A stretch of 64,000 nucleotides of DNA, taken from positions 33,361,732 to 33,425,731 of the forward strand of contig CM075775.1 of assembly GCA_037974665.1 (NCBI GenBank). The letters run 5' to 3'. Positions 3,031 through 52,422 of this stretch are shown here, in pieces; within the stretch, counting starts at the first letter, position 1, and every line of letters starts with the position of its first letter. The notes below the pieces were generated by a model. The model did no database searches, was not told the DNA's origin, and worked only from the letters and a program-made list of their open reading frames with translations. The DNA is from Ehretia macrophylla. Lineage: Eukaryota; Streptophyta; Magnoliopsida; Boraginales; Ehretiaceae. The position numbers and the translations under genes are program-made.

Positions 3031-3978
3031 ATGAGTTCGAAACAAACAAGTTTTTCGAAGTCAGGAAAATCTCAGAACAAGAGTAAGCGTCCGTCCTGGA
3101 TCGATCTCTATTTGCCCGAGAAAGCTCGGCCTTATGCCCACCTCGCAAGATTAGATAAGCCTATAGGCAGCTGGCTACTCGCTTGGCCGGCTTTCTGGAC
3201 CGTTGCTATGGCAGCGAATCCGGGAAGCCTGCCGAGTATAAAGTTATTGGCAATATTCGGCTGGTGGACGGTTCTGATACGAGGTGCAGGATGTACTATT
3301 AACGATTACTTTGATCGAGATTTTGATAAGAAGGTTGAGCGTACAAAATCCAGGCCACTTGCCAGTGGTGCTTTGACACCAGGGCAAGGACTTTGGTGGC
3401 TTGGATTTCAATTGGTTTTCGGTCTAGGCATTTTTCATCAAGTGAATAGCTTGACTCTCATATTGGCCATCATACATATTCCATTGGTCTTTGCATATCC
3501 TCTCATGAAAAGGATAACATATTGGCCTCAAGCTTTTCTTGGTGTGATGATTAGCTGGGGAGCTTTACTAGGTTCGACTTCCATTAATGGAAGCATTGAT
3601 CCTATTGTTGCATATCCACCTTACATTTCTAGCTTTTTTTGGACACTTGTTTATGATACTATATATGCACATCAAGATAAAGAAGACGATGAAAAAGCTG
3701 GTGTGAAATCCACAGCCTTGAGGTTTGCAGATTCAACAAGAGAATGGACTAGTGAGTTTGGAATTGCATGCATTGGTGCTCTTGTTGTTGGTGGACTCTG
3801 TGCAAATATTGGATGGCTATATTTTGTGTCTGTGGCAATTGCAGCTTGCCATTTAGCTTGGCAGATTTGGACAGTTGATCTCTCATCCCCTATTGATTGT
3901 GGCAAGAAATTTGTTTCTAACCAAGTGCTTGGTGCTATAATTTTCGGTGGCATTCTACTCGGAAGACACTTTCCATAG
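3031..3978 (+). CDS. 4-hydroxybenzoate polyprenyl/geranyl transferase, copy 1 (intact ORF)
   Basis: Encodes a 315-residue integral membrane UbiA-family prenyltransferase, which joins a prenyl diphosphate to 4-hydroxybenzoate. The first Asp-rich motif is N91-D92-Y-F-D95-R-D-F-D99, followed by SRPLASG near 107-113. The second motif is Y208-D209-T-I-Y-A-H-Q-D216-K-E-D219-D220. YPLMKR at 156-161 and several hydrophobic helices also fit the COQ2/PPT/PGT branch. The N-terminus is only about 22 basic and serine-rich residues before SWIDLYLP, so the long mitochondrial presequence of plant ubiquinone PPTs is absent and an ER location is plausible. It has no intron, unlike the multi-exon plant PPT genes. 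It differs from copy 4 at six residues: 6, 80, 197, 242, 313 and 314. Expression is doubtful because the core promoter is deleted. Family assignment is firm; the substrate (geranyl or a longer prenyl chain) is not determined. Confidence 0.9.
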   Translation: MSSKQTSFSKSGKSQNKSKRPSWIDLYLPEKARPYAHLARLDKPIGSWLLAWPAFWTVAMAANPGSLPSIKLLAIFGWWTVLIRGAGCTINDYFDRDFDKKVERTKSRPLASGALTPGQGLWWLGFQLVFGLGIFHQVNSLTLILAIIHIPLVFAYPLMKRITYWPQAFLGVMISWGALLGSTSINGSIDPIVAYPPYISSFFWTLVYDTIYAHQDKEDDEKAGVKSTALRFADSTREWTSEFGIACIGALVVGGLCANIGWLYFVSVAIAACHLAWQIWTVDLSSPIDCGKKFVSNQVLGAIIFGGILLGRHFP

Positions 3979-4012
3979 AATGTAGTATGTGAGTTGGTCC
4001 TCTCTAAGGGGT

Positions 4013-4025
4013 AAAAAAAAAAAAA
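4013..4025 (+). other. A13 tract after copy 1 stop codon
   Basis: Thirteen consecutive A residues start 35 bp after the stop codon. A-rich tracts occur at the same place in the other copies (about 22420-22442, 30436-30460, 52440-52454). They could be the relic poly(A) tail of an ancestral retroposed mRNA, although a later poly(A)-like run in units 3 and 4 (about 40540-40550) could equally be the original end. Confidence 0.45.
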
Positions 4026-4591
4026 TGGAGGCATAATAAGTGTCACTGATTATTAGTGGATTTAATTTAATTTTTTAATAGTTTCGTGCATTCTAAATCA
4101 ACTACGGATTTGGCTCGTGGAATATTGTTATTGTAGAAATATTGTAACCTTTAATTTTATGGGAAATAATATAAATTGTATGTTACACTTTTCTCAGTAA
4201 AAGAAGCTTAAGTGATTGGGAAAAAAAAATAATAATAATAATTATCTTGTTTTCAGTATAGAATTTCTAAGCCACTCGATCTCTCTCTACTTTCCATGCA
4301 TTTTATTGTTAATTGTAATAATTTACTACGAAGCTAGTTGCATAAACAGCTACTAAAATGAATATGGATTCCCTTCACATATGAAGGAGATCAATGATTG
4401 TTAAGTAATAATATAGTTATACTAAAATAATTTGAATTATTAATTGTGGAGATGAAATAATTAAATCATTACCATATGCATTATTTTATGTGTGAAGATG
4501 AAATAATTAAATCATCACCTTATGCATTATTTTAAATCATAACATTACTTGTGATGCTTTAATTTTGTGTTAATTTAGGGTTGCGAAAAGG
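4026..4591. other. 3' flank of copy 1, no gene seen
   Basis: AT-rich non-coding sequence shared with units 2, 3 and 4 (for example the words GCATTCTAAATCAACTACG). It contains a short direct repeat around the word GATGAAATAATTAAATCAT near 4450-4530. Nothing resembling a coding region or RNA gene is visible. Confidence 0.7.
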
Positions 4592-5031
4592 ATTACGCAA
4601 GTTTTTTTTTTTTTAATGAAGGGAGGGGAACTTCATATCGAAATTTTATTAATTAAAAAAACAAAATATAAAAGTGGAGGGGGATATCAACCTTACCTCC
4701 ACACAAGGACGGAGAATTTACGTGTTCTGTTATCTAATCTATTCTAAAAGAGATACAAATCACCTCTTTTTACAAAGAAGCGTAGTAACAAGGAACCAAA
4801 AGGAGTGCAAGAAAAATACAAAAACGTGCAGATCAAGGGCTAGAACCGAAAGTAGGGAAGAACAGCCTTATCTAGTCGAATCATACCTCTTAGCAATTTG
4901 TGGTCTTCCAATGAGTGGATCATTTTAAGTTCAGTTGCATCAGCTCCTAAGTTAGTAAGAAGATCTGCTGCTTGGTTACCTTCTCGATAGATATAAGAAA
5001 TTTTTCTTCGCAATCTAGCATTACGCCAGTT
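4592..5031 (-). mobile_element. 5'-truncated LINE with RNase H remnant (unit 1)
   Basis: On the minus strand the segment reads as the 3' end of a plant non-LTR retrotransposon: an RNase H tail with YIYREGNQAADLLTNLGA, then a short 3' part ending in poly(A) (T13 at 4602-4614 on the + strand). It is flanked by a 12-bp target duplication, ATTACGCAAGTT at 4592-4603 and ATTACGCCAGTT at 5020-5031. Units 3 and 4 have the empty site (about 40974 and 56056). The same insertion is present in unit 2. The fragment is dead. Confidence 0.8.
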
Positions 5032-5202: not shown

Positions 5203-6720
5203 TGTTAGATTATATGTCCTAAATGTTAATTTTAGGACATAATAATTATATTATTTATTTAATGTATGCAGTTTATTTAAATATTATTAATGTGATTAAT
5301 TATTTAAATAAAAGTCCTTACAATAATATTTATAGATTGTATCCTTAAGAGTAAGGATATGAATATTTATGAATATAGATTATATCCTTAAGAGTAAGGA
5401 TATGAGTGACAAAATCTATATTCATAAATATATTCTAAAATAGTCCCTAATCGTAAGATAAATTAATTGGGCGTTAATTTATCCGGAAAGATCGGATTAC
5501 AGTGTATCATCCAAATAATATGATATATTGATTTGAGCGATTAGTCTCATATCGTAGGGTAGATGTATAAGTGTTTGTTGAGAACAAGTGACTGGACATG
5601 ACCGCTAGTACAACAAATTACATGGAATGGTTAATGATTCGCTATATAGTGTAATGGTGCAATTAGTTCTTAGACTTGAGACACCACGATTATCTTATGT
5701 TAGAGATAACGTAATTTACTGGTGCAAAAAAATTAGTCCTCATCAAGGATTGGATAATGTACTTAGTGGTTACAATCTATTCCGAGATGGAAATAGGTGT
5801 GTGTAGATATGGAATCTGTCAATTAGGGATCTTATGTGATATATTAATCAAGTAACTAGAAATCATTGGCCGAGGTAGAATAGTGGAAGTCGTTCCACAT
5901 ATTATTCATAAGTTACTGATTAAATAGATTTGGACATATGATTGAATAATAGGGTTTGATGACCCTATCCATGACTCTAGCTCAATCAGAATAATTTAGA
6001 CAGAAGGAATTGATTGCATAATTGTTACTAAAGGGTTCGTAGAATTTCACTTCATCATTAGTTGAGTAGTCGTAATATATTACTAGGTATCACTCACGAC
6101 TTGAAAGAATTAAATTAGAAGAGTTCTAATTAAATATTAATTAGATTAATATTATTTCGCTGCCAATTAATTATGAACCCGAGAGGTCACACACAAATAG
6201 AATTTGCAAATTAATTGGATTAGAGAAAAATATTAAATTAAATTTAGGATCGTCCTAAATATTAATTTAATCAGGGCTCGTAGTAATTGCATGATGATCT
6301 GGTTATTATGGAGCCCAAGACTGATTAGTTTAAGTCCAGTCCACATGTGGCCCTAAGTCCACATATGTCTCCTATATATTGTACTATTCTAACAGGTTTA
6401 GTTAGCACAAAAATCATAGTAATAATAATATGTAGGATTTCTCTAGAAAACCTAGTGGGGGTGAAATCCAATTAAGGGTGCCGATTCTGTGTAGATACTT
6501 TCGGAGGCTTCACAATTAGGGAGTTTTGGATCGTTCGAATCCTACAACAGATTCATCATCATGGAAAGGAAATCCTGAAATCCTTTAATGCGTAATTAAT
6601 GTCGATTATTATGCATGTATGTAATCTACGTAAATAGCCATGAACGAATGCATGAGTATTATGGTTTCCGCTGCATTTATTTAATTATAAAATTTTAAAT
6701 ACCATGCATGATTCCCAACA
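5203..6720 (+). repeat. Copia 5' LTR (1518 bp)
   Basis: Starts TGTTAGATTATATGTCC and ends ATTCCCAACA. It is about 45 bp longer than the 3' LTR, mostly because of a local duplication around 5326-5410 in which the words ATCCTTAAGAGTAAGGATAT occur twice. Short inverted words such as CCTAAATGTTAATTTTAGG lie at the start. No coding potential. Confidence 0.9.
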
Positions 6721-6721
6721 G

Positions 6722-6733
6722 TGGTATCAGAGA
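6722..6733 (+). other. Copia primer binding site
   Basis: TGGTATCAGAGA begins one base after the 5' LTR. It matches the usual plant Copia primer site complementary to the 3' end of initiator methionine tRNA (TGGTATCAGAGC), with one difference at the last base. Confidence 0.85.
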
Positions 6734-7089
6734 CACCGTTCATGCCTTTTATGTGGTTATTCGATTTTAGCACATAAATTCATAGCACAGTTAAGGTGTC
6801 AAGCTAATAGTTTGTGAAGCTATTGTAAAATTAATAGTTTGTGAAATCTATTAATTTATGCCCAAAGAATTTAATTAGGATTAAATTCTAGCCCTATGCT
6901 TTTTGCCTAAAAGACTGATTTTATGAAAAAGGATGTTTTTAATAAATCAGGATTTGTTTTATTTTTCTGAAATAGTTTCAGTTTTTATTTCAAAACCTGT
7001 TTACAAAACTACATTAAAATTAGATTTTAAAATCCGTTTTGTGAACTCGAAATTAAAAAAAAATGGAAAAACCAGTTTTCCAGAATTTA

Positions 7090-7345
7090 TAAAAAACCCC
7101 CATATCCCCTCAGCAGCACGCCGTTGCCAGCATCACCATGGAAGCAGCCATGGTGATAGCAGCGACGATGGCAGCCGCTGCTATCATCGCGGGGCAGCAG
7201 GGCTGCTGTCGCTGCCTGCAGCGTCACTGCAGTGCGATACAGCGGTGCAGCCATGGCAGCAGCTATCGGCTGCTTGAAAAGTTGCAGCACACCGCTGCCA
7301 TAGTGGCAGCGGCAGTGGTGCCTAACGAAAAAGGTAAAAAGGGTG
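7090..7345. other. GC-rich CAGC-repeat island inside the Copia element
   Basis: About 250 bp much richer in G and C than anything near it, built from CAGC, GCTGC and CCATGG words with overlapping inverted repeats (for example GCCATGGTGATAGCAGCGAC against GCTGCTATCATCGC). Short ORFs run through it on both strands because the composition lacks stops. None resembles Copia gag. A (TA)n run follows at about 7379-7423. It may be a captured or expanded low-complexity segment. Confidence 0.5.
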
Positions 7346-7376
7346 GGGGTGGCAGTTGTGAAGAAGAGTAAGAAAG

Positions 7377-7423
<47 letters not shown>

Positions 7424-7424
<1 letters not shown>

Positions 7425-10200
7425 CTGATTCGGGTAGGGTTTCGAAGCCGACCCGAATCGGAATGGGTTTGATCCGTGTATGGATCTAGACCCGGATCCA
7501 AACCCAAGGTGTTGGATGATGGATGGGTTATATTTTGTTTTTTAATTTTTCTATTACTTAATCTTTTGGGCTGTTGGGCTAATAGTTTTGGGCCAATTTT
7601 AAATTCGAATTTGAATAAGATAAATGAGACTTATTTTATTGTTTGGGTTGGGTTGGCAATTAAAGGATTAAGTTTCTATTTCTCGCTTGGACTAATGGGC
7701 ACATGTATTATAAATGGGCATATTTTGATTTGGGCTAGATTTGGACTATTTTAAAATTGTTTTAAAATAAGTATGGACTTGTTGGTGGTCTGTATTGGGC
7801 CAATCTCAATTCAGACTTAGATATGAAATAGTGTGGACTATTTTAGTGTTTGAATTGGACTGTTGGTCTTTTGGACTTGGACTTAATTAAAATAGGTTGG
7901 ACTTATTTTAATTTTTAAAGTCTAGATTGTTTAATTAGTTTTGTTTGAGAAATTAATTAAAGAAGCCCAAAGATATTTTGACACTTTATATTAATAAATA
8001 GTTTATTAATTATTAAATATAATTTGATTATATTTGTATTTTGTAAATATGAGATATTTATGGAGTATATTTAATAAATAGTTTATTAAATAGAATAAAT
8101 TTAATAAAGAGTTTATTAAATTGAAAAATCTAATGTAAAGAGTTTATATTAAGAAATTAATTGTGTTATACTTGTAGTTAATTAATAAATTGTTTATTAA
8201 TTAATTACTATAAATATAATAAGATTATATTTATTTAAATATGACATAGTTAAGGATCCAAATTACTAAAGGTGTTTCTTAATTGGATAAACCTAATATA
8301 ATGAAATTATATTGAGAAACTAATTGTGCTATATTTGTGGATTACTTTTCTTTATTTTTTTGCTATGTTTTTGGGTGATCATGGACTAGTCTTGTGTGTA
8401 TGAATGAATGAATGAATGTCATTATTTTATTTATTTACTGATTTTGGGTTTTATGTAATATTTTAAAATAGGGCTTGCTTGCCTCTTATCCCCGTTTTAA
8501 ATATGTAAAACCCTATTCCCATTTATGTATCCCCACTAGATTAGGAATCTATGTACATAAATGTAATGGAAGATCAAGATGAAAACATCAAGAGTTGGTG
8601 GGCCTAGTTCACGAAAGGAGTTTTGTGGAGCCAAGGAGGAGGAGCTCATGAATCTATCTTGTGGGCCCTTTATTTGATTTAGGAATTCAACCCAGTGGCT
8701 CGGGTTGATAGTTCTCCTAATCCATGATCATCTCATTTTATTTTATGCATTTATTTATTTATTTATGCGATAAATATATGATGAATGCATGTATGTTTCT
8801 ATTTTATTTATGCGATAAATTGAAATTAGAAGCATGTGAAAAGTGAGACCTAAACTAAAGACCAGCAAACCTTCCCAAATTAAATATTAAGTTAATAATG
8901 GTGTAGTCTTAAGAAGATTATATCATTGCCTTATGTTATCGTAGATTAGTTTATATGTTGGACAAGTAAGTAGCTGGCTATGGACACATAGGGATTATTT
9001 ATTTATATCAACATATGAACTAAGTCTATGTAAGCATGAGATGTGGAAAATTTGGATTCTTACTGGCAACTAAAAATCTATCATATGAGGTGTCGATATT
9101 GCATTGATCCAAATTTTCAGGATAATGGGTTTAACTTAAACAATCTTGGAGACCAAAAATCTATAATGTGAGGTCGAAAGGATTGGATGCAAGAATAATT
9201 AGAATTTGTATGAGATACATTGAATAGGAGGTTATTCACCTATTTGTTTTAACTTCACCAAAAATCTAAAATGTGAGGTGGGTTAAAGTAAATGGGCCCC
9301 CAATTCTACTAAAAAAAATACCTTATTATTTTTCCGTTTTCCACTAGGAAAGTGTGGGATTTGAGAAATTTAGTGGAGGTTATTGTTTGACTTAAATACC
9401 CAAATCAAATACTTAATAATATAATTATCTAACATCCTTAGAAATTACTGCCTATATATTATCAAATAGGAACCCAACCTTCTATTTTGACTAGACTAAA
9501 CTTCGATGACTAGCTCAAAATTTTAAGAATTGTTCTCAAATCTGAGAAAGTTATACACGTTCTAGATGTCGAAATAAGTTGTCAAAAGATGCAAGAAAGC
9601 ATGGGTAATGTATCCATCATTAATTATTTACAAAAGTTATGAAGTAAGTAAGATAGGACAATTAGGTATAAGAGATCTAGTGGCAGATATGAGATATCTA
9701 GAAAATTAAGGATAATTAGAGGAATTGATTTGAGAGCATATATTCTCAGGATCAGTATCTTGAGTCCATGAGTTTATTCATGGTTTATCATATGGACACA
9801 AATTTAATCCTCAAAGTCAATTCTTAATTCTCTCTTGTCATTCATAATGGATTTTTACATGTGAATACATTTGACACAACCTTTGGACATGAGAGTCATG
9901 TATGAAGGGTAGATCTGGAAAGGTGGAGCTTAATTGGTGAAAGGATATTATTTCCACTACAAGAAATGAGAACTACTACGAGAGGAAAATCCAAAGGACT
10001 TCAAAAAGTTTGAAATCGATGCCCTCTATAAATACGTCTTGTCTTTTCATTTACCCATCTGGGTGTTCACTAATTTTAGAATAATTGTTGTTCATGTGTT
10101 TTATTTATTTGAGAAATAAATGAATTGACACTGGAAATTAATGAACGAGTTTTATATGTATGATGTAAAACGTGATGGCAAGACAAACGAGTAATATAAG
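7424..10200 (+). other. Copia internal region, gag not recognisable
   Basis: AT-rich internal sequence between the GC-rich island and the first recognisable pol motif. Gag and protease should lie here, but I could not find a CCHC knuckle or a DSG/DTG protease motif in a readable frame. Repeated words such as GTTTATTAAAT at 7990-8200 suggest local slippage. Treat it as decayed coding and leader sequence. Confidence 0.5.
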
Positions 10201-10212
10201 AAATCAAGAGAT

Positions 10213-12546
10213 ATGAATAACACTAAATTATTGTGGCACTTACGATTAGGTCATAAAAGAGAAACAAGAATCACTCAATTGGTGAAAGAAGGACTGGTAA
10301 ACCCTTGAGGCTCCAGGACATTCCCAACACGTGGATCTTATGCTCTTAAAAATGATCAAATCGCCCTTTGTAGGAGAAAGTCAAAGGACCACAAATATTT
10401 AGAATTTATACATAGGGATGTATGTGGGCCTTTTGGCGAAAAAGCCCAATAAGGATTTAGCTACCTTACATATATTTATGATTGTCATAAGTATGAATCT
10501 GAATCATTTGAAATGTTCAAGGAATTCAGAGCTAAAGTAGTAAATCAAACTAGAAATGAGAAGTAAGTCTCAATGATGAGATCATGGAGAATTCTTAGCC
10601 TCAATTTCTAATAGTATCTCAAAGGAAAATAACATAGTTACTTCATTAACTTCTTTTGATATTCCAATGCTTGATGAAGTATCAGAGAGAATGAGTTGGA
10701 CTTGTTGGACATGGTCTAGCAAATGATAAACTATGTTGATTTATAATTTAGCCTGTGAGGCTATATTCTCCTTATAGCAGTACATCTCTTGGATAAGGTC
10801 ACTTCCAAGTTAATCTTAAATACTTCATATGGGATACGAGAAAATAGGATACCTAGTCTTAAGGTGTTAAGAATGAGGGTTATCCTGCTTTCAATCAAAG
10901 GCTTGAGATTGATAAATTGGAAATGAGATTGGACAAGGTTAATTGGTTATCCCAAAGATTCGTTGGGATATAACTTTTATTCCTTTGCTGACTAGAGAGT
11001 CATTTAGCAAGTACAACTTCTTCTTGGAAGAATAGTTCATCTAAGGAGATAGGGTGGGAAGAAAAGTATGACTCAGTAAGAGTCACTAAGCAACCAGCTA
11101 ACCTGAGTCAAATCTAGGATTTGATTCTAGAAAACCCAATCCAAGAGCAACTGATTATTTCACAGCTTTACCCATATCAATAAGATGACAATAATCATGT
11201 TGATGATTTTTGTTAGTTATGAAAAGTTATGTTAAACATAAGCTTAAATGGCTTAAGGCCATAAAATCTTAAATGAATTTCATGCAAGCTTGTGGACCTA
11301 CAGGTCATACAAGAGAGAGAAAGGTAGAGACCTTTAAGACAAATGGTGAAAGACTATTGTCATAGGCAAAGAGTAGACTATGAGGAAATCTTTTCACCAG
11401 TTGTTAAAATTCATTATGATTTATTGATCATAGTTGCACACTACTATTATGAGATATGGTATATGGATGTCAAAACGGCATTCCATAATGACTTCATTAG
11501 TGAAGACATTAATAATTGACTGCCAATATGTTTTGAGTCTAGTGATAAATCACAAAGAGTGCAAGCTAAAGAGATCCATTTATGGACTTGAGCAAGCCTA
11601 TAACAATCTAGAACATTCGGTTTGACTTCATTGAGAATGAAGATAAACCTCAACTACACAAGTAGGTCTAAGTTATTCAAATGAATTCTCCAAGTAAATT
11701 TTGGAATAATCTGCCTAAATCCTTGGAAGATGATTTATAGCGATAGATCAAAAGGATTAATGGGTTTTTTTCCAAAAGGGTGTTAAAGGTGTTTAACATG
11801 TACATAGATTCTAAAAGAGAATTGTTCTCTTTTAAGACATGACAGTTATCTCTCTAGGGCTGAGAGTCTTGAGACTGCTAAAGAGAGAGAGACTGGACAC
11901 ATAAGGTTCTAAGTACTGCAGCAATTAAGCATCTTATATATGTCATACTGTGTACAAAGACATGATATCATAAATGCTATAAGTGTTATGAACAGATATC
12001 TATCTTGTCCAGGTTAGGAATGCTGGAAAGCAATCAAGAACATTCTTAAGCACTTGAGACGCACTAAAGAAATGTTCTTGGTATATGGAAAAGGTGAAAA
12101 TTAAAGTTTTACAAATTTAGACTGAGAGTCTAAAGTGGATTATTGAAAATCCATATTTGGGTTCATAGTCACTTGTAACAGAAGAACAATTATTTGGAAA
12201 TGTTTCAAATATTTGTACAATTGCAAATTCCAGAGGTTGAATGTATCGTTGCATCAGATGTGACAAGAGGAAGCGGTTTGGATCTAGGAGTTCATAACTG
12301 AACTCGGGATGGTTCTTTCCATTAAGTCAACGGGTAGTGTTGTGACGACAATGGAGTTATAGCGCAAGCTAAAGAACCTAGGTCTCACTAGAGATCCAAG
12401 CGCATTAAAGACACTTACCACATCGATCAGAGATTGTAGAAAGGATGATATTATGCAGTAAATAACGTCAACAGTTGACGGTGCTAGTCCACTGACTAAG
12501 GCAATGATTCAGCAGTCATTTGATTACCATATTGAGGGGATATGAG
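10213..12546 (+). pseudogene. Copia pol remnant (GAG-pre-integrase, INT, RT, RNase H)
   Basis: Fragments in shifting frames still read as Copia polyprotein. GAG-pre-integrase LLWHLRLGHKRETRITQLV lies at about 10228-10284. The integrase core, with words like VCGPFGEKA, is at about 10400-10730. The integrase tail with GYPK and YFY words is near 10940-10990. Reverse transcriptase start words (YEEIFSPVVKI, then YMDVKTAFHNDF) are at about 11379-11490. RNase H words around IAQAKEPRSH are at about 12358-12400, and the polyprotein end (DPLTKAMIQQSFDYHIEGM) is just before the 3' LTR. Stops and frameshifts are frequent, and the YVDD box and much of the RT palm were not found. It is non-functional. Confidence 0.85.
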
Positions 12547-12582
12547 ATACCAGAGTAATTGGCTTTAGTGCATGTGGAAGAT

Positions 12583-14055
12583 TATTGGATTATATGTCCT
12601 AAATGCCAATTTTAGGACATAATAATTATATTATTTATTTAATGTGAGCAGTTTATTTAATATTATTAATGTGATTAACTATTTAAATAAAAGTCCTTAG
12701 AATAATATTTATAGATTTTATCCTTAACAGTAAGGATATGAGTGATAAAATCTATATTCATAAATATATTCTAAAATAGTCCCCGATCGTAGGATAAATT
12801 AATTGGTCGTTAATTTATCCGAAAAGATCATATTACAGTCTATCATCCAAATAATATGAAATATTTATTTGGGCGATTAGTCTCATATATTAGAGTAGAT
12901 GTATAAGTGCTTGTTGAGAACAAGTGATTGGACATGACCGCTAGTACAACGAATTACATAGAATGGTCAATGCTTCGTTGTACAATGTAATGGTGCAATT
13001 AGTCCTTAGCCCTGAGACACCAAGGTTATCTTGTATTAAGGATAACGTAATTTGCTAGTGCAATAAAGCTAGTCATCATCAAGGATTGGATAATGTACTT
13101 AGTAGTTACAATCTATCCCGGCATGGAGATAGGTGTGTGTAGATATAGAATCTATCAATTAGGGATCCTATATGATCTATTAATCAAGTAACTAGAAATC
13201 GTTGGCCGAGGTAGAATAGTGGAAGTCGTTCCACGTATTATTCATAAGTTACTGATTAAATAGATTTGGACATATGATTGAGTAATAGAGTTTGACGACC
13301 CTATCCATGACTCTGGCTCAATCAAGATAATTTAGACATAATGAATTGATTGCATAATTGTAACTAAAGGGTTCGTAGAATTTCACTTCATCATTAGTTG
13401 AGTAGTTGTGATATACTACTAGGTATCACTCACGACTTGCAAGAATTAAATTAGAAGAGTTCTAATTAAATATTAATTAGATTAATATTATTTCGCTGCC
13501 AATTAATTATGAACCTGAGATGTCACACACAAATAGAATTTGCAGATTAATTGGATTAGAGAAAAATATTAAATTAAATTTAGGATCGTTCTAAATATTA
13601 ATTTAATCAAGGCTCGTAGTAATTGCATGATGATCTGGTTATTATGGAGCCCAAGACTGGTTAGTTTAAGTCCAGTCCACATATGGCCCTAGATCACATG
13701 TGTCTCCTATATATTGTACTATTCTGACAGGTTTAGCTAGCACAAAAATCATATTCAGAATAATATGTAGGATTTTTCTGGAAAACCTAGTAGTGGTGAA
13801 ATCCAATTAGGGGTGCAGATTCTGTGTGGATACTTTTGGAGGCTTCACAATTGGGGAGCTTTGGATCGTTCAAATCCTACAACAGATTCATCATCATGGA
13901 AAAGTAATCTTGAAATCCTTTAATGCGTAATTAATGTCGATCATTATGCATGTATGTAATCTACGTAAATAGCCATGAACGGATGCATGAGTATTATGTT
14001 TTCCGCTGCGTTTATTTAATTATAAAATTTTAAATACCATGCACGATTCCCAACA
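12583..14055 (+). repeat. Copia 3' LTR (1473 bp)
   Basis: Aligns throughout with the 5' LTR, with many substitutions and a missing ~45-bp duplication. The first dinucleotide has changed from TG to TA. A short purine-rich tract (GTGGAAGAT) precedes it and fits a polypurine tract. It ends CCCAACA. Confidence 0.9.
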
Positions 14056-17000
14056 GATATCTTAGATGAGAAAGAGGGATGGACTATAACGTTATTATTA
14101 AGTGGTGGCGAAATCAGGCATGCGTGGTTAGGGTGGATATTACGGTGACGAAATCAGTAATTAAGGGTCGGTGAACTCATTTATTCATAAATCTTATATG
14201 TAAATTATAAAAGTACTATTGACTTTAAACCTAAAAACATGTTTTTGATGATAATAGATCACAATATGCTATAACTAAACCGATACACATTACAACAAAA
14301 ATGAAGTCTTCAAGGCATAACTCATTCTCATATAATGCACTTAGTAGCGATTCAAAAAATGTAAGCACTAAAGTATATATGTAATAGAAAAAAGAGGAAA
14401 AAGATAATTATAATCATTGTAAATAGAAAAAGTCCACTTCATTAGATGTAAAATTGTTACTTATAAATTTATTATGTTTTAGAAAGATTATCCATACCCT
14501 ATTCAACATATAACAAATTAAAAATCCAATTTAAATGAGATTAAAATGTTACAAGCATAGCATGTATAAATTAAAACAATATATACATAAAAATAACAGA
14601 AAAATGGGCTACTATATAATACGCAATTGAAAACTGCCTTAAAGAGCTCCAAAACCAATTTGTATTGTTCAGATTGTATAAACTTGGGTCATAAACTTGG
14701 TTACCAAAATTTTAGCTCCATCGGATATGAAATCACCTTCCTTATCATATATTTGACGAAGACTTGTCCAATTTTTTCCTATATTTTCCTATCCTTTCCT
14801 CTATTTTCTCTCGTTTACTCACTCTCTCTTTTCAGGCAAGAAAAGCACATAACATATCATTCTCAATGTGAAAAACAAGAGAAAATAATCAAAAAAAATT
14901 GTTTGTCAACAGTAAAAATAAGGCACCTTCATCACTTTTCCATCTCCCTTCACTGTTACTTCCTATCACTTTTCATTATTTGAATAGTAAATATATACAT
15001 ACATAAATAAATAAATATATATATATATATACATATATGTGTATATTTTTCTTTTTCCAACTTAAGGTGTGCACGGGCACCCCTTAGACATAGCTCCCTC
15101 CACCACTGCTATTAAGTGAGCACTGCATAGAAAAACTTAAACTCATGGGTCTGTTATATTTATATTCTATGAAATTTTAAAGACCCTTATTTATGTAGGC
15201 TAGATAGTTTTTTATTGACTCTTACATGTAAATGTAATTTTTACAAATAGGTGGTAGTTAGTTTTAAACCCTGAATTTTTTTGGTACTTAGACTCTTATA
15301 CTATATTAAGTGACAATTGCATCCAAAAGTTCAAGTTATTAGAGAAGAGTATGTTATATTTATCATAAAGCCAAGTTTGTATATATCATAAAGCTAAAAG
15401 TGATAGTAAGAAATCATTGATGAGGTATTGTTCTTGCGGTTAAAGATTGAAGTTCCTCGATGCTCTCATGATATATGGACTATCATACACTATAACACGT
15501 TAGATATTTTTTAACACTCCAATTGAAAATTGAAAGCCATTGTAAAAGGTATCTTATTGCAACGGTTTTTAGTTTTCTATACCTATTTTTTTTTAAAAAA
15601 AAAATTTAACTAATAATTGCTCATAAAAATACTTATTCCAATAGTTTTAAAATGTTATTCATTGTTTATGGAAAAACCCATTGAAATAGAGGATTCCCAA
15701 CGAGACCATATAAAACAACACCATATACAATAGTTTCTAGTCTTTTTTCAATAGTTTTAAATATCCTTAAATATGGCAATAGATCAAAAATTTGATAGTG
15801 ATATAAATTATTAATGATTGTACCTCCTAATTCTTCTTATGATTAAATTCTTGTTGCATGGACATTGTTGTGTAAATCATTGACTTTCATTTAAAACTAT
15901 CTATACATATGCATGTATATAATATTATTATTTACCACACTTTTCAAATGCAAAAAAAAAATTGATTTTAAGGTCTAAACTTGGTTTATTATGGAACTCA
16001 TATCCAAAATTTTAAAATCTCTAATGAAATGTTTAAACTTTTGAAAAATGGGTATTTTACATACCCATTAACACAATCCTCTCTCCCCCCTCCCCCCTCA
16101 ATGTATATATAAAATAAAATTTACCTCCTAATGTTTATTTTATATCACTTAACCTCCACATGTAATTTAATAAAGTAAAATGTCCCTTGTAGCCGTTAAA
16201 GATATACAATATAAAAAAAATACCTTTCTGTATATCTAATGTTTATCTTCTATTTCTCATTTTTATAAATGTTAAAACTTTAGACAAGAAATATAACTGA
16301 AAACAAAATATATATTGTTTAACTGTACAATGAATAAATAGTATAACTTTTTTGTCTCTTAATATTTATTTCTTTTTTGGGCTAATATCACTTTACACCC
16401 TCAATATGTAACTTTTTCTCTTTCATATTTATTTTACATCATCTAAACCCTTTTGTATTATTAGGTAAAAAAGGTGGGCATTTTCACATTTGTGTATTCT
16501 ATAACGGTTATAATAAACACTATTATTAACTAAAGCATGAGGAGGTTAAGTAATCCAAAATATTACAATATATGTAAATTGAGGGGATAAAGTGTCATTA
16601 ATATTTTTAGGATAACAATAGTTTACGCCTTTTATGAATATATAATAGTATAACATTTTGAAACTTGCTTGATTTTGAAGATATCAGTTTGAATTTGATG
16701 ATCAAATTGTGTTAAGAAATATAATGTTTGACTCTAAAACTATTGATATTAGGTAAAGTAGCTAAATATCTTCTATACATGTTTTGGAGTCATGACTTAT
16801 CTATGTCGGACAAATATTGTATTCTTTGACGCTAAGTGTGTAAAAAATTGAGGAGGCAACTTTCAATAATATGTTGAGTTGTGTATGAGAGCGTAGTCCC
16901 ACGTGGATGGGCAAGAGTGGACCAAGACATAACTCTAATACCATGTTAAAAAATGATGTAGAACCTCTCTAAATTAATACTTTATAAATTAATAATTTTT

Positions 17001-31230: not shown

Positions 31231-31240
31231 CTATAAATAG
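31231..31240 (+). promoter_or_regulatory. TATA box for the antisense gene
   Basis: CTATAAATAG lies 260 bp before the ATG at 31491, outside the LTR and facing the antisense gene. A candidate intron in the 5' leader starts at GTACGT (31405) and ends at TTTTCAG (31487), leaving only three bases between the splice site and the ATG. Promoter activity is inferred from motif and position only. Confidence 0.55.
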
Positions 31241-31490
31241 GCCCTTAGCATCCGAGATTCGTTTCACACTTTGCTTTCAATTTCCCAAGAATTTTAGGTC
31301 GGACACCAGAGTGGTCGGACACAATTAACTCGGAAGGAATCTTGTCGGGATTTGTCAGCTCGGAGCCAGCTTAATCGGTCGCAATCCGCAGTCAAGAGTC
31401 ATAGGTACGTCCCGACTCCCTTTAGTCCTTCCTATTTATATTTAGTCTGTAGACAGGATAGGAAGGTCGGAGTCGGAAGATTTTCAGGCG

Positions 31491-39830: not shown

Positions 39831-39878
39831 AGTGGTTTCTCAATGAGTGGTGAAGAGAGTTATAAAAGAACTCGTCGT

Positions 39879-39896
39879 TTCTCACAGACGGCGCCA
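39879..39896 (-). other. Gypsy primer binding site
   Basis: On the minus strand TGGCGCCGTCTGTGAG begins three bases inside the 5' LTR border, a sequence type widespread as primer site in plant Gypsy elements. I do not assign the tRNA. Confidence 0.8.
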
Positions 39897-39899
39897 AAC

Positions 39900-40365
39900 T
39901 GTCGAGGTTGGAAATCTCACAGTTGAGGTTGGGAGCTACTTGCGCCGAGCTGGACTTTTCAGGTTGGCCTCCGAGCTGAATTTTCCTGGTCGGCCACCAG
40001 ACCTGCACAAGGAAAAGAAGGAAAATACGGGGTGATGACCCGAATTTTCCCCTCGAGCGTGCGAATGATTAGTATGTCCGAGTTGACAAGGTAGCTTAGA
40101 GCATTTAATAACGAGTTACCTCCTTAAATGAAGAGGGTGGAGCTCTATTTATACTAAGTTCTAGTCTAACAGCATTTAATGCAGCGCAGCTTTATGTCCC
40201 ATCAGTACTTTATGTCCCATCGGAACAGCTGGAACTGAGGTCGGGGTTTCCGGGGTCGGGCCAGTCAACCTGGTTGGATATTCAGTTGAACGCACTGGCC
40301 TTGACGCTGATTAGCCCACCTCGGCTCGGGATGGATTCGTACTTTGGCTCGGGAACCCCTCGTCA
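39900..40365 (-). repeat. Gypsy 5' LTR (466 bp)
   Basis: Same length as the 3' LTR. It contains TATAAATAG on the minus strand (40145-40153), the likely promoter for gag-pol. It is richer in G and C than the 3' copy at the sites where they differ. Confidence 0.95.
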
Positions 40366-40370
40366 CCTTT

Positions 40371-42245
40371 AATATGGTTTGACCATGCGAGAGTGGCCAA
40401 ATCATTTCCTACTCAAATAGGGTTGTTTTTTGTTTCTCTTTCTTTCTTTTCTTTTTTTTACCTTCGTTTCTTCGTTGTTTCTAGTCTATGAACTCCCCTA
40501 TGTACTTTTCATTCTATGAAATACAAAATGTTTAATTTGCAAAAAAAAAAAGGATTTGATTTTTTTAATTGTTTGGTGCATTCTAAATCAACTACGGATT
40601 TGGGTCATGAAATATTGTTATTGTAGCAATAGTGTCACCTTTAATTCTCTGTTAATTAATATAAATAGGATGTTACCCTTTTTTCATAAAAAAATAGCTT
40701 GAGTGGTTAGGGAAAAATCAAATCTTGTTTACTTATTAATTGTTATACTTTATTACGAAGCTAGTTCCATAACCAGCCATCTAAAATGAATTTGGAGTCC
40801 CTTAACATATAAAGGAGATCGAAGATAGTGAAATAATAATACAATTATAATGAAATAATTTAAATTATTAAGTTTGGGGATAAAATGATTAAATCATTAT
40901 CTTATGCATTAATTTATGTCATAACATTACTTGTAATCCTTTAATTTTGTGTTGATTTAGGGTTGCGAAAAGGATTACACTAGTTAAAAATACAATAAGC
41001 TGAATAGAGAAATTTGTAACCAAATGAACCTTAGGGAGATTATTGAGTAGTATGTATTGTAGATTCTTTTTGTTTTTTATACTCGTTGTAATGGCCTCAC
41101 CATTTGTTTTTTAATATGGAATGAAACTTTACTTACTAACCAAGCAAAAAAAAAAATACAACAAAAATTTTGAATTAGTTTTCAACCGCGCTCGTGATAT
41201 GAAACAAGAACTAGTTAGGAATTTCGATGGAGTAATTCATTCAATAGACAATTGGTGGCATGTTTTACTATGGTACGCTAATTTTTTATATTCATGCATG
41301 TAAAATTGCAATTTCCTAGATGAGAAAGATTGAAAGACTATAATATTACTAGTGAACAGTGGCGAAACTAGGTACTCGGGGATAGCGTAGGAACTAAAAT
41401 GATAAAATCAGTAACCAAGGATCGAAGAACTCATTTATTCATAAATCATATATATAAAAAACTATTGACTTTAAATCAAAAAATATATTTTTGATGATGA
41501 CGGATCACAATATACTATAACTAAACTAATACACACAAACAAAGTCTTCAAGTCATGACTCCTCATATAATGCACTTTGTAGCAATTGTGGAAATGTAAG
41601 CACTATAGCATATATAGAGTCTTCAAAATGTTAGTTCCGCTCAATATAGTAATGATATAATATACAAAAGAGAGAAAAAAAATAATTATAGTCATTGTAA
41701 ATGGAAAAAGTCCACTTTGTTAGATGTAAATGGAAATTGTTACTCAGAAATTGATTATCTTTTAGAAAGATTATTCATGCCCTATTCAACAAATAATAAA
41801 TTAGAAATCTAATTTAAATGAGATTAGAAAGTTACAAGTATAGCATGTATAAATTAAAATAATATATATATATATATATAACAAGAAAAATGAGCTATTG
41901 TATTATACGCAATTGAAAATTGCCTTAGAGAGCTCTGAACCCAATTTGTATTGTTTAGATTGTAAAAACTTGAGTCATTAACTTGGTCACCAAAATTTCA
42001 ACTTCATCAGATATGATATCACCGTCCTTATCATATTTTTGATGAAGACTATAAATTATTTTCCTATCCTTTCTCTATATTTTCTCTCATTTCCTCACTC
42101 TCTCTTTTCACTCAATAAAAGTACAAAACATATCATTCTCAACATGAGCACTGCATCTAAAAGTTAAAAGTAAAAATAAGGCAACCTTCATCACTTTTCC
42201 ACCTCCCTTCACTTTTACTTCCTATCACTTTTCATTATTTTAACA

Positions 42246-42309
<64 letters not shown>

Positions 42310-44200
42310 CATGGGTACTCCTAAGACATAGCTCCCTCTGCTACTGCTATTAAGTGAGTACCACATCTAAAAGTTAAAACTATTATACAGGAGTTTGTTA
42401 TATTTAGAGTCTATTAAATTTTAAAGACCCTTATTTATGTAGGCTAGATAGTTTTTTATTAACCCTTACATGTGAACGTAACTTTTACAAACGCGTGGTA
42501 GTTAGTTTTGAACCCTAAACTTTTTTGGTATTTAAATTCTAATACCTTATTAAGTGACTACCACATCCAAAAGTTTAAGTTATTATAGAAGAGATATTAT
42601 ATTTATTTATTTATGTCTCCAAAAGTCACAATTGAAATTATGTAAGCCAAGCTTATATATCATAAAGCTAAAAATGATAGTAACAAATCATTGATGAGAT
42701 ATTGTTCGTCCAGTTAAAGATTCAAGTTCCACGTCCGATACTCTCATGATGTATTGACTATCTTTTTCTAACACTCCAATTCAAAAATGAAAACAAAATG
42801 TCAAAAAATGAAAAAAAAAAAAAAAAACCATTGTAAAATATATCTTATTGCAATGGTTTATATTTTTGTATAAACTAAAAATTTTTGCAACAAATTCTTT
42901 TTAATTATTTTTTACTAATAATTGTTCATGAAAATATTTTTTTCCCAACGGTTTTAAAATGTTGTTTATTGTTTATAGAAAACCATTGCAATAGAGCATT
43001 TCTAACGGGATCATATGAAACGGCACCATATGCAACGATTAAAGTTATTAGCAACGATTTTTTATCTTTTTTCAATAGTTTTAAATGTCCTTATATATTG
43101 CAATAGATCAAAAATATGCTAGTGATGTAAATTATTTGTGGTTGTATCTCCGATTCTTCTTATGATTAAATTATTGTTGCGTGGAAGTTGTTGTGTAAAT
43201 CATTGATTTTCGTTTAAAAACTATATATATCTATGCATGTATATTATACTATTATTAACCACACTTTCAAATGCGAAAAGTAATGATTTTAAGGTCTAAA
43301 TTAAACTTGGTTTTTTATGGAACTTATTTCCTAAATTTTAAAGTCTCTAATGAAATGTTTAAACTTTTTAAAAAATGGGTATTTTACATAGGTATTAAAC
43401 CCCTCCCCTCTCAATGTATACATAAAATAAAATTTACCTTCTAATGTTTATTTTAAATCACTTAACCTCCACACATAATTTAATTAAATAAAAAGTTCCT
43501 TGTAGTTGTTAAAAATATACGATGAACTTTTCGTATATCTAATGTTTATCTTCTATTTCTTCTTTTTATAGATGTTAAAACTTTAGACAAGAAATGTAAC
43601 TTCAAACAAAATATTATATAGTTTAACGTTACAATGTATAAATAATATGACAGTTTTTCTCCTATGATTTATTTCTTTTTTGGGCTAATATCACTTTACA
43701 CCCTTAATGCGTAACTTTTTCTCTTTCATATTTATTTTACATCATCTAAACCTTTTGTGTTATTAGGTAAAAAAAGGGCATTTTCATATTTGTATATTCT
43801 ATAATGGTTATAACAACCACTTTTATTAACTAAAGTATGGGGAGGTTAAGTAATGCAAAATAAATACTAGGGCAAAATGCTACAATATATGTACATTGAA
43901 GGGATAAAGTGCCATTAATATTTTTAGGATAATAACATTTTACCCCCGTTATATATAATAGTATAATATTTTGTCTTTTTTTATTTTGTACCACTTAACA
44001 CTTTTGGATAATAATATACATTTGTATACTTTCTAACTACAACAACAGGTATTTTTTAACTAAACCCGGAATAATGAGGATAAAGTGATATTAACTCAAG
44101 ATTTTGTAATTAATGCATGTGCAAAATACAATTTTCAAAAGTTTAAACCTTCTATTACAAATTTTGAATTTCATATTGACCTAACTTAGGTGCAGGCAGA
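40371..44200. other. 3' flank of unit 3, no gene
   Basis: Continues the flank cut by the Gypsy element. 40371-40550 matches unit 4 and ends in an A11 run. 40900-41010 is the LINE empty site. 41300 is the Copia empty site. The rest matches 23705-27000 with a (TA)n run at about 42250-42301 and a TRIM-like fragment at 42485-42600. The match with units 1 and 2 fades after about 44130. No coding region seen. Confidence 0.7.
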
Positions 44201-48276: not shown

Positions 48277-49800
48277 TGAGCATTTTATTTCACCCACCCA
48301 AAAAGCAAAAAGAAACACCAAGGTCTGTTTGGTTGTGGAGAAGTGAAATGCTTATATAAATATTCTCAAAGAAATTGATAAACAGTTAATACTCCAACCG
48401 ACATTTAGGGCTTCCCACGTGGCTAATTTGAAGGGCACCTCCCAATACAACACTAGAATTCAAATCAGTCAATGATCAAACACAAGAATCAAGATTAAAT
48501 GACGACACGTGATGGTATCCCCCACTCGATGCAACCAATCTCTCAAAGTTTAATACATATCACTAAGCTATATGATTAAATAACGAAACATGATGGTATC
48601 CCTTGATACACCCAATTTCTCAAAATTTAATGCTTATCACTAAGTTATATGCAATTATGTATCCTCCGCTCGATGCACTCAATCTTTCAAAGTTTAATGC
48701 ATATCACTAAATTATATGATCATGTGCCCTACGTTTTCTCATTCAGTCTATTCATTTTCGTCTTCACAAATGTGCAATGTAGGGGGGACTTTTCAAAAAG
48801 AATATATATTTTATTAGTGATACTTTATTTTCAAGCTTTTTCCCTAGAACTCCTTAGAACCCGCCCTTCTTTATATCTACTGTCTTGTGCATTGGCTTGA
48901 GTGATAAAGGCGGGTAAAAGTCCAAAACAGGCATCACAAAAGACATATCACATTTAAAAAACACATTCGGTTGGGAGGAAATATAAATTCTTCTGAAAAT
49001 GTTTTCTCCAAATTGGATTGCGTTAGGTAACTTATATAAGATAGTTTTTCACTAATTTTTTAAGAATTTTAGAGAATTTATTTTTCAATATATATTTTGA
49101 ATAATTAGAAATATTATGTTTTGGTGCATGCTTTAGATCATCTCAAAAAGCTTCTCTATTTTGGCCAAAATAAGAGAGTAAAGAGATATTTTTGGTCTCG
49201 AACAACCTTCCTAAAGGGTTCTCTATTTTAAAGAGCTCTTAAACTTTTTAATTTGACTCTCCAAATGTAGAACTAGAGCCAGATTTTGTTCCCTATTTAT
49301 TTTAAATTTCTCAAATATGAGTAATGTTAGATGTTACTCTATTTGTATCACCTAAATATCATCTCATATGTATATGCGTAATATATTTATTGTTAAGTCC
49401 AGAAATCTAAATATTTTTGTAAATCAATAATAATTAATTTATCAATAAATTCATATCTTGTTAAAAAATTAGGTGCTTCAAAAATTATTAATTTTAAAGA
49501 AATTAGACTGTATGGGGTTATCAATTCGTCTTCGCTAGAATTTTTTATGCTAGTCATAGATGTTATAATGTATCCATGTGCGGCAAGTGTATTATTTAAC
49601 AAAATAGTCTTCTTCTGTGTACCAAGATCACGGGACAACTCATTGTACAAAACCCATGTTACACGTGAATTTGGGAAGATTTCAGCCTACTTTGTATATT
49701 TATTATAGCAGCCTTTTATGAATGAAGAAACCTTTGAGAAATCAATTGATGCAGAAAATTGACCATTATATATATATAACTTAAACTGTTACACAATTAT
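48277..49800 (+). repeat. Distal 5' flank of unit 4
   Basis: Duplicate of 1-1548, from TGAGCATTTTATTTCACCC. Near 48500-48720 a short piece (CTCAAAGTTTAATGCATATC) is triplicated relative to unit 1, and about 95 bp after 48786 are missing. No gene. Confidence 0.8.
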
Positions 49801-50720
49801 ATTCACTACCTCAAATGAAGGTGGAGTTTAATTTTTTTTAGTGTTGCACTTGAATAATTTTAATATTTTAAGTGTGTGGCAATGAGTTTTGAACTCATGA
49901 CCTCTTGGTTTTTAGGCTCTGATACCATGTTAAGTAACTACCTTGGTACCTAGACTCGGATAACATCTTAAGTTATCACCTCATCTAAAATATTAAGTTG
50001 TTTGAGAGAGATTTATTACATTAGTTATTGTCTTCAACATACTCATGACATCTTTGTACTTTCTGATACCATGTTAAATTACTAGCAATATTTTAAATAC
50101 GTAGCAGTGAGTTTTAAACCCAAGAGCTCTTGGTATCTAAGCTCTGAGACCTATGTTAAATTACCACATCATCTAAAAATTTAAGTTAAGAAGTGAAATA
50201 TTGTATTATTTATTATATTTAACATACTTCCACAAGTGCAAGTAGAGTTAACTTCTAAACCTTACACTTTGAACAAAACTTTGCGCTAGTTTTGTTGGTT
50301 TCTTTTGTCAAACTTAACATTCAAGAACCCTGCAGTCATAACACTAACCCTCTACCACCATGTCTGCCATCTCCATCTCTACAACCACTACAACCTCCAC
50401 ATCCGCCATATACAACTATAAATCTTGCACTTCAATAATTTTCATATTTTTAAATTTATGGCGGTAAGTTAGAGTTAGTTTTTAAACTTTGTACTTGTAT
50501 AATTTTCATATTTTTAAATTTATGGCGGTAAGTTAGAGTTAGTTTTTAAACTTTGTACTTGTACAATTTTAATATTTTTAAATTAATGGCGGTGAATTTT
50601 GAACTCAGCATTTTTTGGTACTTAGTTGCTAATACAAAGTTAAATGACCACCTCATTTAAAACTTTAAACTGTTAGAAAGGGGTTTTGTTATATTATTTA
50701 TTATTTTCAACAAAACTTTA
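49801..50720 (-). repeat. TRIM-like array, unit 4
   Basis: The fullest version of the array before a gene copy, with primer-site words TCTGATACCATG (minus-strand PBS) at 49919 and 50067 and LTR-end words TCTTCAACATAC. A ~60-bp internal block around GGCGGTAAGTTAGAGTTAG is duplicated at 50458-50560 relative to unit 1. Non-coding. Confidence 0.6.
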
Positions 50721-51336
50721 GACAAATTTTTTTATAAAATCTTATAACACAAATTTCACTTGTGAAGTTAAGATTATATTCTAAATATATAACGTGAATA
50801 GTAGTTCAATGATTTTTTTTTTTTATAATAGAAGTCAAAATTATCGTTTAAACTAAATTTTTTTAATTACAACAGGTTATTACTAGACCACACACCCAAC
50901 TCTTAGTTTAGTTCAATGTTTGTTATTATACAATCAAGAAAAATAAGATGAATTTGCAACCTCATCAAGTCAAAATACCTTAAAGCTTATTCACCATTCC
51001 ATTCAACAAAAGACAAATTTTATTATCCCAATTCTTTCAATAATTTTAACCTCTTTATTATATTGGGCAAATAAAGTTGACTGGTCTTTAGTTGAATTCC
51101 AACTTTACATCTGAATTATCATGTAGTGCGGTTGATTGCAAGACCCATACTTGAGACTTGAGAGCATCGAAGCCCAATGGGACTTGAGACTCAATAATAA
51201 GTGTCAACGACTCCAATATGTGTGCCGTAATGAGATATAAAATGAACTTTCCTAGTTATCAAGAATTAATTGAATATAGCAGCAAGCCAGAGTTGACAAC
51301 GTCGTCATGGCTGACCCATATGCCTCTGAGACGGTG
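50721..51336 (+). other. Proximal 5' flank of copy 4
   Basis: Similar to the other units but with a private insertion near 51240-51275 (AACTTTCCTAGTTATCAAG). It retains the block deleted in unit 1. Confidence 0.7.
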
Positions 51337-51345
51337 TATAAATTA
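51337..51345 (+). promoter_or_regulatory. TATA-like box of copy 4
   Basis: TATAAATTA, the best TATA match among the copies, 138 bp upstream of the ATG. It predicts a 5' leader of roughly 100 bases rich in CAA and CCT words. Confidence 0.65.
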
Positions 51346-51474
51346 GCCAGCATGCTAACCCTTTTCCTCACCCTCTCCTCAGTTTCCTAACACAAACAAC
51401 AATCCATCACCTTTCTAATAACATTCCAAAATTTCTAAGGTTTAATCTCCGCACCTCAACATTTTTCATTCCCA

Positions 51475-52422
51475 ATGAGTTCGAAACAAGCAAGTTTTTC
51501 GAAGTCAGGAAAATCTCAGAACAAGAGTAAGCGTCCGTCCTGGATCGATCTATATTTGCCCGAGAAAGCTCGGCCTTATGCCCACCTCGCAAGATTAGAT
51601 AAGCCTATAGGCAGCTGGCTACTCGCTTGGCCGGCTTTCTGGACCGTTGCTATGGCAGCGAATCCAGGAAGCCTGCCGAGTATAAAGTTATTGGCAATAT
51701 TCGGCTGGTGGGCTGTTCTGATACGAGGTGCAGGATGTACTATTAATGATTACTTTGATCGAGATTTTGATAAGAAGGTTGAGCGTACGAAATCCAGGCC
51801 ACTTGCCAGTGGTGCTTTGACACCAGGGCAAGGACTTTGGTGGCTTGGATTTCAATTGGTTTTCGGTCTAGGCATTTTTCATCAAGTGAATAGCTTGACT
51901 CTCATATTGGCCATTATACATATTCCATTGGTCTTTGCATATCCTCTCATGAAAAGGATAACATATTGGCCTCAAGCTTTTCTTGGTGTGATGATTAGCT
52001 GGGGAGCTTTACTAGGTTCGACTTCCATTAATGGAAGCATTGATCCTATTGTTGCATATCCACTTTACATTTCTAGTTTTTTTTGGACACTTGTTTATGA
52101 TACTATATATGCACATCAAGATAAAGAAGACGATGAAAAAGCTGGTGTGAAATCCACAGCCTTGAGGTTTGCAGATTCAACAAGAGAATGGACTAGTGGG
52201 TTTGGAATTGCATGCATTGGTGCTCTTGTTGTTGGTGGACTGTGTGCAAATATTGGATGGCTATATTTTGTGTCTGTGGCAATTGCAGCTTGCCATTTAG
52301 CTTGGCAGATTTGGACAGTTGATCTCTCATCCCCTATTGATTGTGGCAAGAAATTTGTTTCTAACCAAGTGCTTGGTGCTATAATTTTCGGTGGCATTCT
52401 ACTCGGAAGACTCGTTCCATAG
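51475..52422 (+). CDS. 4-hydroxybenzoate polyprenyl/geranyl transferase, copy 4 (intact gene and promoter)
   Basis: A 315-residue UbiA-family prenyltransferase with the start, both Asp-rich motifs (N91-D92..D95..D99 and D209..D216..D219-D220), RPLASG and YPLMKR all in place. Single exon. The short basic N-terminus (SSKQASFSKSGKSQNKSK) is not an obvious mitochondrial presequence and is far shorter than in plant ubiquinone-pathway PPTs. It probably prenylates 4-hydroxybenzoate; NDYFDRDFD rather than the NDLLDRD-type motif of ubiquinone PPTs favours a specialised geranyltransferase, but this rests on memory of the family. Of the copies in the window it is the only one with no visible lesion in ORF or core promoter. 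Its last residues (GRLVP) differ from the other copies. Confidence 0.92.
   Translation: MSSKQASFSKSGKSQNKSKRPSWIDLYLPEKARPYAHLARLDKPIGSWLLAWPAFWTVAMAANPGSLPSIKLLAIFGWWAVLIRGAGCTINDYFDRDFDKKVERTKSRPLASGALTPGQGLWWLGFQLVFGLGIFHQVNSLTLILAIIHIPLVFAYPLMKRITYWPQAFLGVMISWGALLGSTSINGSIDPIVAYPLYISSFFWTLVYDTIYAHQDKEDDEKAGVKSTALRFADSTREWTSGFGIACIGALVVGGLCANIGWLYFVSVAIAACHLAWQIWTVDLSSPIDCGKKFVSNQVLGAIIFGGILLGRLVP

Follow-up and report, generated by a model that had tools for sequence, protein, structure and literature searches.

How a plant prenyltransferase gene came to be multiplied without its introns, and what the copies may now do, are the questions raised by a 64,000-nucleotide stretch of the genome of Ehretia macrophylla (Ehretiaceae, Boraginales; C12:33,361,732-33,425,731, hereafter the window). 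The window holds four single-exon copies of a gene for a 4-hydroxybenzoate prenyltransferase of 315 residues, all on the + strand, with copies 2-4 sharing 97.4-98.5% DNA identity with copy 1; they contain no introns and so depart from the eight-exon structure of plant mitochondrial PPT/COQ2 genes. Two more copies lie upstream of the window, at C12:33.303 and 33.326 Mb, bringing the array to six. A first-pass annotation, made from the letters of the window, had described four near-identical copies in one orientation plus a fifth, partial one. The four copies are as described, but the stub was not recovered from the window: blastn with the coding sequence (E 1e-3) gave no fifth copy, and every additional tblastn match up to E 20 looked like chance, with E values of 2.7 or higher. 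As to origin, the array is very probably part of an ancient retrogene family that arose from a plant COQ2/PPT mRNA and was later amplified in tandem.

All four copies match the Pfam UbiA family PF01040 (E 3.1e-40 to 7.6e-61; copy 3 through its 3' piece only), and copy 1, the only copy given to this comparison, scores 322 bits against TIGR01474 (4-hydroxybenzoate octaprenyltransferase; NCBIfam cut-off 275.45). When the genome (1,579,978,469 bases in 20 contigs) was searched with the spliced protein of a relative on contig C7 (C7a), 114 matches were obtained, and eight exons could be modelled in seven of the eight genes tried, which fall into class I (C7a, C15b) and class II (C3a, C7z, C15a, C15d and the gene on contig C5, the last five all free of internal stops). 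Exon ends in C7a, C3a, C15a and the C5 gene were chosen by visual inspection, with AG preceding and GT or GC following at the intron ends, and the same rule was imposed by script on the other models. Multi-exon PPT genes, which the first-pass annotation had suggested looking for elsewhere in the genome, are accordingly present. Copy 4 aligns with both class I genes without a single gap over 294 residues, crossing all seven intron junctions, and with the class II genes with a gap of one residue.

Intronless genes occur in three groups: the array itself (six copies), a group on C10 at 62.5 Mb (two open, one broken) and broken pieces on C12 at 38.13-38.21 Mb. In a tree of 15 plant and ten bacterial UbiA rows, which is to be read as one without plant PGT, AtPPT1 or plastid-type UbiA sequences, the plant rows were split from the bacterial ones at 100/100, and eight intronless rows (five array copies, two from C10 and one part from C12 at 38 Mb) formed a single group (99/98), as did class II (99/99) and class I (100/98). 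Synonymous distances were 0.023-0.052 within the array, 0.50-0.54 between the array and the C10 genes, and 0.87-1.41 between intronless and multi-exon genes. Descent from a bacterial or plastid UbiA lineage would explain the absence of introns, and the single exon is all that speaks for it; alphaproteobacterial UbiA proteins (37 rows) share 41-50% identity with copy 4, yet the ten of them in the tree stand apart from the copies, which group with the plant's own multi-exon PPT genes. For these ten rows a bacterial origin is rejected by the tree, the best curated family of copy 1 is of the ubiquinone type, and we regard either source as next to impossible. The earlier reading of the copies as a retroposed PPT gene is thus upheld by the eight-exon relatives, the gapless alignment and the intronless clade, and the placement of the copies in the tree also speaks in its favour.

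On this evidence, a COQ2/PPT mRNA would have been reverse transcribed and inserted without its seven introns, as the observed gene structure suggests. The resulting intronless gene would then have given rise to the copies on C10 and at the two places on C12; the paralogy of these copies is directly visible, and duplication at the DNA level together with flanking sequence is visible within the groups only. At 33.3 Mb on C12 the gene was amplified into the array, each unit comprising promoter region, gene and 3' spacer. Sequence comparison within the window identified both 5' and 3' flanks common to the copies (Table 1), bearing out the earlier claim of duplication with flanks at Kimura two-parameter (K2P) distances of 0.04-0.13: the 3' flank and spacers of copies 1 and 2 differ by 0.053-0.085, and the older pairs tested by 0.13.

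Long terminal repeat (LTR) retrotransposons split the units after duplication. The element 3' of copy 1 we take to be Copia-like from its primer-binding site, and the unoccupied site of the Gypsy-like element 3' of copy 3 (30569-40365) can be seen after copy 4. Because the units differ both in divergence and in their LTR insertions, duplication by the assembly is argued against. Inside the Gypsy-like element, at 31446-32534 on the + strand, lies an open frame matching PF04195 (putative gypsy type transposon) that runs in the opposite direction to the reverse transcriptase and RNase H frames of the element.

Table 1. Features of the array in the window (positions counted from its first letter).
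Feature	Position	Strand	Remarks
Copy 1, single-exon PPT/PGT-like gene, 315 aa	3031..3978	+	Frame and start intact; about 79 nt of 5' region gone, TATA-like box included
Copy 2	21440..22387	+	Open frame, start ATG changed to ATC; Q278E at a position invariant in 37 bacterial rows
Copy 3	29463..30414	+	Frame broken by 4-nt insertion at coding position 314
Copy 4	51475..52422	+	Frame, start codon and TATA-like region all intact
5' region of copy 4 with TATA-like box	51215..51474	+	Common to copies 2 and 3 and both upstream array copies
Duplicated 5' flank of copy 1	512..2865		Matches 48792-51207 upstream of copy 4, K2P 0.037-0.047
Duplicated 5' flank of copy 4	48792..51207		
Duplicated 3' spacer of copy 1	14057..18182		Matches 23706-28186 and, in part, 41152-43973 and 56069-58024
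Duplicated 3' spacer of copy 2	23706..28186		
Duplicated 3' spacer of copy 3	41152..43973		Displaced downstream by the Gypsy-like insertion
Duplicated 3' spacer of copy 4	56069..58024		
LTR retrotransposon 3' of copy 1	5374..14056	+	LTRs 92.5% identical
Gypsy-like LTR retrotransposon 3' of copy 3	30569..40365	-	LTRs 95.5% identical; target-site duplication CCTTT; reverse transcriptase and RNase H matches on - strand

Several observations weigh against so simple a history. The position of the source gene is loosely fixed: class I appears as sister of the intronless group at 85/78, class II in that place is not rejected by the approximately unbiased (AU) test (p = 0.205), and a grouping of class I with class II is likewise not rejected (AU p = 0.189). 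No target-site duplication or poly(A) tail left by retroposition was recognised, although no systematic search for them was made. The first-pass annotation had taken the A-rich tracts after the stop codons as such a mark, and a stretch of this kind does lie within about 60 nt of the stop in all six array copies (it is short in copy 4 and in the 33.326 Mb copy); none was seen, however, in the first 60 nt after the stop of either open C10 copy, and runs of nine or more A occur 17 times in the window, so that we did not accept these tracts as poly(A) relics and do not consider them diagnostic. A promoter shared by the C10, 33.3 Mb and 38 Mb groups was also considered as proof of duplication at the DNA level. 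For each pair, the local alignment of 400-500 nt of upstream sequence was set against 40 single-base shuffles. Of the ten pairs between a C10 copy and an array or 38 Mb copy, none exceeded the shuffle maximum, and two of six pairs between the array and the 38 Mb group did so (W4 and W1 with C38a; 33 and 28 against 27 and 25), a result judged too weak, and the argument was dropped. Since there is no convincing flank similarity among the three groups, repeated retroposition within one lineage is possible.

The copies differ in their integrity and are less sound than the first-pass annotation had implied: half of those in the window are broken in frame or start (the ATC start of copy 2 and the 4-nt insertion of copy 3). 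Frame and start codon are both intact in copies 1 and 4, and with the TATA-like region counted as well, only copy 4 of the four is complete. Across the six-copy array, the frame is open in all but copy 3, and a TATA-like box, picked out by eye without a promoter scan, is present in all but copy 1; the two upstream copies retain frame, start and TATA-like region. Among the five open array copies, the ratio of non-synonymous to synonymous substitution (dN/dS) lies between 0.03 and 0.37 in all ten pairs. Binomial tests on four of these pairs gave p = 1.4e-5, 0.0011, 0.025 and 0.057, the lowest for copy 4 and the 33.303 Mb copy, which differ by one amino-acid change and nine synonymous ones.

The missing mitochondrial presequence, which the first-pass annotation had listed among the marks of retroposition, requires separate treatment. 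Copies 1, 2 and 4 carry an in-frame stop 12 codons ahead of the start, where copy 3 reads CAA, and that exon therefore encodes no presequence in the former three; the observation stands, but not as a mark of retroposition. The eight-exon genes C7a and C15b carry long N-terminal extensions, and the single-exon C10 genes encode about 39 residues ahead of an internal MSSKQ, at the equivalent of which the window copies begin. In class II, C3a and C7z start at the MSSQ site with a stop six codons upstream, the first Met of C15a stands just before the equivalent MSS site, Met codons of the C5 gene lie some 30-50 codons upstream, and the exon-1 frame of C15d has no Met, all of these N-terminal readings being subject to upstream exons that may have been missed. 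Presequence loss is separate from intron loss, because intronless copies on C10 keep the extension and two of the five class II models start at the MSS site. Without a presequence, the array product would probably work outside mitochondria. Net charge and helix moment over the first 40 residues, compared among four proteins, failed to distinguish those with a presequence from the rest, and targeting therefore remains a guess.

The residues and predicted fold are those of a UbiA-type enzyme. NDxxD and GVKSTAL are kept in all five open array copies, as is a further motif which we take to be the second aspartate-rich motif. At the 94 positions conserved in at least 90% of the 37 bacterial rows, 13 are altered in all five array copies, with the motif aspartates unaffected. 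Array-wide changes relative to class I include F174 to I, which is one of these 13, and N175 to S, residue 174 being I or V in intronless rows, F in class I and M in class II. Changes at invariant positions are Q278E in copy 2, S227F in C10b and Q278L in both C10 copies. The structure model of copy 4 has a mean predicted local distance difference test (pLDDT) score of 89.9, with residues 1-18 below 50, and its best solved folds are all of the UbiA family (7bpu, 6m31, 4od4 and 4od5, the last with a TM-score of 0.72 when normalised to the query). Family membership, fold and residue conservation make the product most likely a membrane enzyme, one that would join a prenyl diphosphate to carbon 3 of 4-hydroxybenzoate by means of the two aspartate-rich motifs.

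The closest described system is that of Lithospermum, for which single-exon PGT and PGT-like genes have been attributed to retroposition from PPT (PMC7261806) and LePPT1 has eight exons (PMC7261806, PMC6603238). LePGT1, LePGT2 and the PGT-like genes of L. erythrorhizon resemble the array copies as single-exon UbiA-type 4-hydroxybenzoate prenyltransferases with NDxxD and GX(K/Y)STAL, the latter listed for PGT and PGT-like proteins in PMC7261806 and fitted by GVKSTAL; the Lithospermum proteins have no detectable transit peptide, and the copies with the upstream stop have no presequence. This likeness is one of gene structure and motifs. The systems differ in that Ehretia lies outside the shikonin producers named there and carries a six-copy tandem array, that other intronless copies in Ehretia keep an N-terminal extension, and that the Ehretia prenyl donor is possibly C5 (a five-carbon unit). 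A tandem pseudogene adjoins LePGT1 (PMC7261806), Arnebia tschimganica is reported to have a family of 16 PGT genes and L. erythrorhizon one of 19 (PMC13253341), the Lithospermum study reported a Boraginales-wide radiation using 14 further Boraginales transcriptomes (PMC7261806), and its follow-up names Ehretia acuminata (PMC8969065). RcDT1 of Rubia cordifolia (Rubiaceae) is likewise PPT-related and recruited to specialised quinones, and is a dimethylallyltransferase that accepts 4-hydroxybenzoate, but its main role is prenylation of 1,4-dihydroxy-2-naphthoic acid (PMC11288731). Plant PPT/COQ2 proteins (AtPPT1, OsPPT1) share family and motifs with the array, and have eight-exon relatives in the Ehretia genome; they differ from the array copies, which are without introns and presequence and carry the changes at residues 174 and 175.

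With regard to function, recruitment of the array to specialised metabolism is plausible, and the product would feed metabolites of the prenylhydroquinone type. Prenylquinone chemistry is known from Ehretia and from Onosma bracteatum, a member of the same order. The root of E. longiflora yields 4-hydroxy-3-prenylbenzoic acid and prenylhydroquinone, and seven dimeric prenylbenzoquinones are recorded from E. microphylla, E. buxifolia and E. longiflora (review PMC11885236); Onosma bracteatum also yields allomicrophyllone and ehretiquinones (PMC6479397), so that this chemistry is not confined to Ehretia, and Cordia quinones have been proposed to originate from 4-hydroxybenzoate and geranyl units (PMC10667191). 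4-Hydroxy-3-prenylbenzoic acid is the product expected of a 4-hydroxybenzoate dimethylallyltransferase. In view of the C5-prenylated compounds of Ehretia, the array may therefore encode a C5-specific relative of the shikonin geranyltransferases, and we propose tentatively that it could be a 4-hydroxybenzoate:dimethylallyltransferase catalysing the first committed step towards Ehretia prenylhydroquinone and the dimeric prenylbenzoquinones (microphyllone, ehretianone, ehretiquinone). Among the matches listed in our literature search, with subscription journals mostly outside its scope, there was no Ehretia prenyltransferase gene and, except for RcDT1, no plant 4-hydroxybenzoate dimethylallyltransferase gene.

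This assignment has to be set against the state of the array and against other sources of the same products. Frame or start is damaged in two of the six copies and the TATA-like region is missing from copy 1, indicating that decay of the array is under way; one of the four pairs tested for selection is not significant (p = 0.057), and the same holds for the C10 pair (p = 0.20). The accessible part of the review (PMC11885236) assigns none of the above compounds to E. macrophylla, and their formation could equally be due to the class II genes with eight exons. That the array is mostly a relic, with specialised prenylation carried out by the class II genes, which are also multiplied (on C3 and C15, with one each on C7 and C5), would fit the lesions carried by every window copy but copy 4, the absence of internal stops from all five class II models and the five exon-5 loci on C3 alone. 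It is nevertheless unlikely, given the excess of synonymous change between copy 4 and the 33.303 Mb copy (p 1.4e-5), the intact frame, start and TATA-like region of both upstream copies, and the lack of a Met in the exon-1 frame of C15d.

Two further roles were considered. The window copies might be plain geranyltransferases using a ten-carbon (C10) donor, with the same function as LePGT1/2 and feeding geranylhydroquinone chemistry: their gene structure is that of the published single-exon PGT-like genes (PMC7261806), and LePGT1/2 are reported to be strictly specific for geranyl diphosphate (PMC5159609). However, the Ehretia quinones in the accessible part of the review (PMC11885236) are dimers of C5-prenylated units, with no geranylated one among them, which renders this role doubtful. 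Continued service in ubiquinone synthesis is consistent with copy 1 exceeding the cut-off of the ubiquinone UbiA family TIGR01474, but is very unlikely in light of the missing presequence of copies 1, 2 and 4 and the existence of eight-exon genes with long N-terminal extensions (C7a, C15b).

If the array does encode a C5-specific enzyme, one retroposition before the split of Ehretiaceae and Boraginaceae would be the common origin of the entry enzymes in two quinone pathways with donors of different chain length. The origin of PGT has been placed in the common ancestor of the shikonin producers (PMC7261806); the intronless clade has a synonymous distance near 0.5 (C10 against C12) within Ehretia, and the retroposition may therefore be older than that ancestor, provided that the Ehretia and Lithospermum genes are orthologous. 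Single-exon PGT-like genes and large PGT families are already known from Lithospermum, and expansion of the family as such is not new, since the at least 18 exon-5 loci and the intronless groups found here are comparable in number to the reported PGT families of 16 and 19 genes (PMC13253341). The present analysis adds the genomic layout in Ehretiaceae, a chromosome-level picture of a single-exon PPT-derived family beside its eight-exon relatives. It further shows that the copies vary in integrity and that intron loss and presequence loss are separate, and it puts forward a specific C5 hypothesis, with concrete candidate genes for an early reaction in the formation of Ehretia quinones.

Elsewhere in the genome, separate exon-5 matches mark at least 18 loci (five on C7, seven on C15, five on C3, one of these modelled, and one on C5), counts that are lower bounds and may include fragments. 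In the eighth gene tried, C15c, exon 8 was not found within the stretch examined, and intron 1 of C7a has a GC donor in its model. In the C12 group at 38 Mb, two copies share one interruption near codon 121, a site within exon 3 of the multi-exon genes. At C15:562,536-590,426 a pair of PPT genes is followed after about 19.35 kb by a second pair that scores the same or almost the same, suggesting a recent tandem duplication. Finally, C20:13,876,421-13,877,347 is a nuclear plastid insert with an open rbcL frame, whose flanking pieces presumably correspond to atpB and accD.

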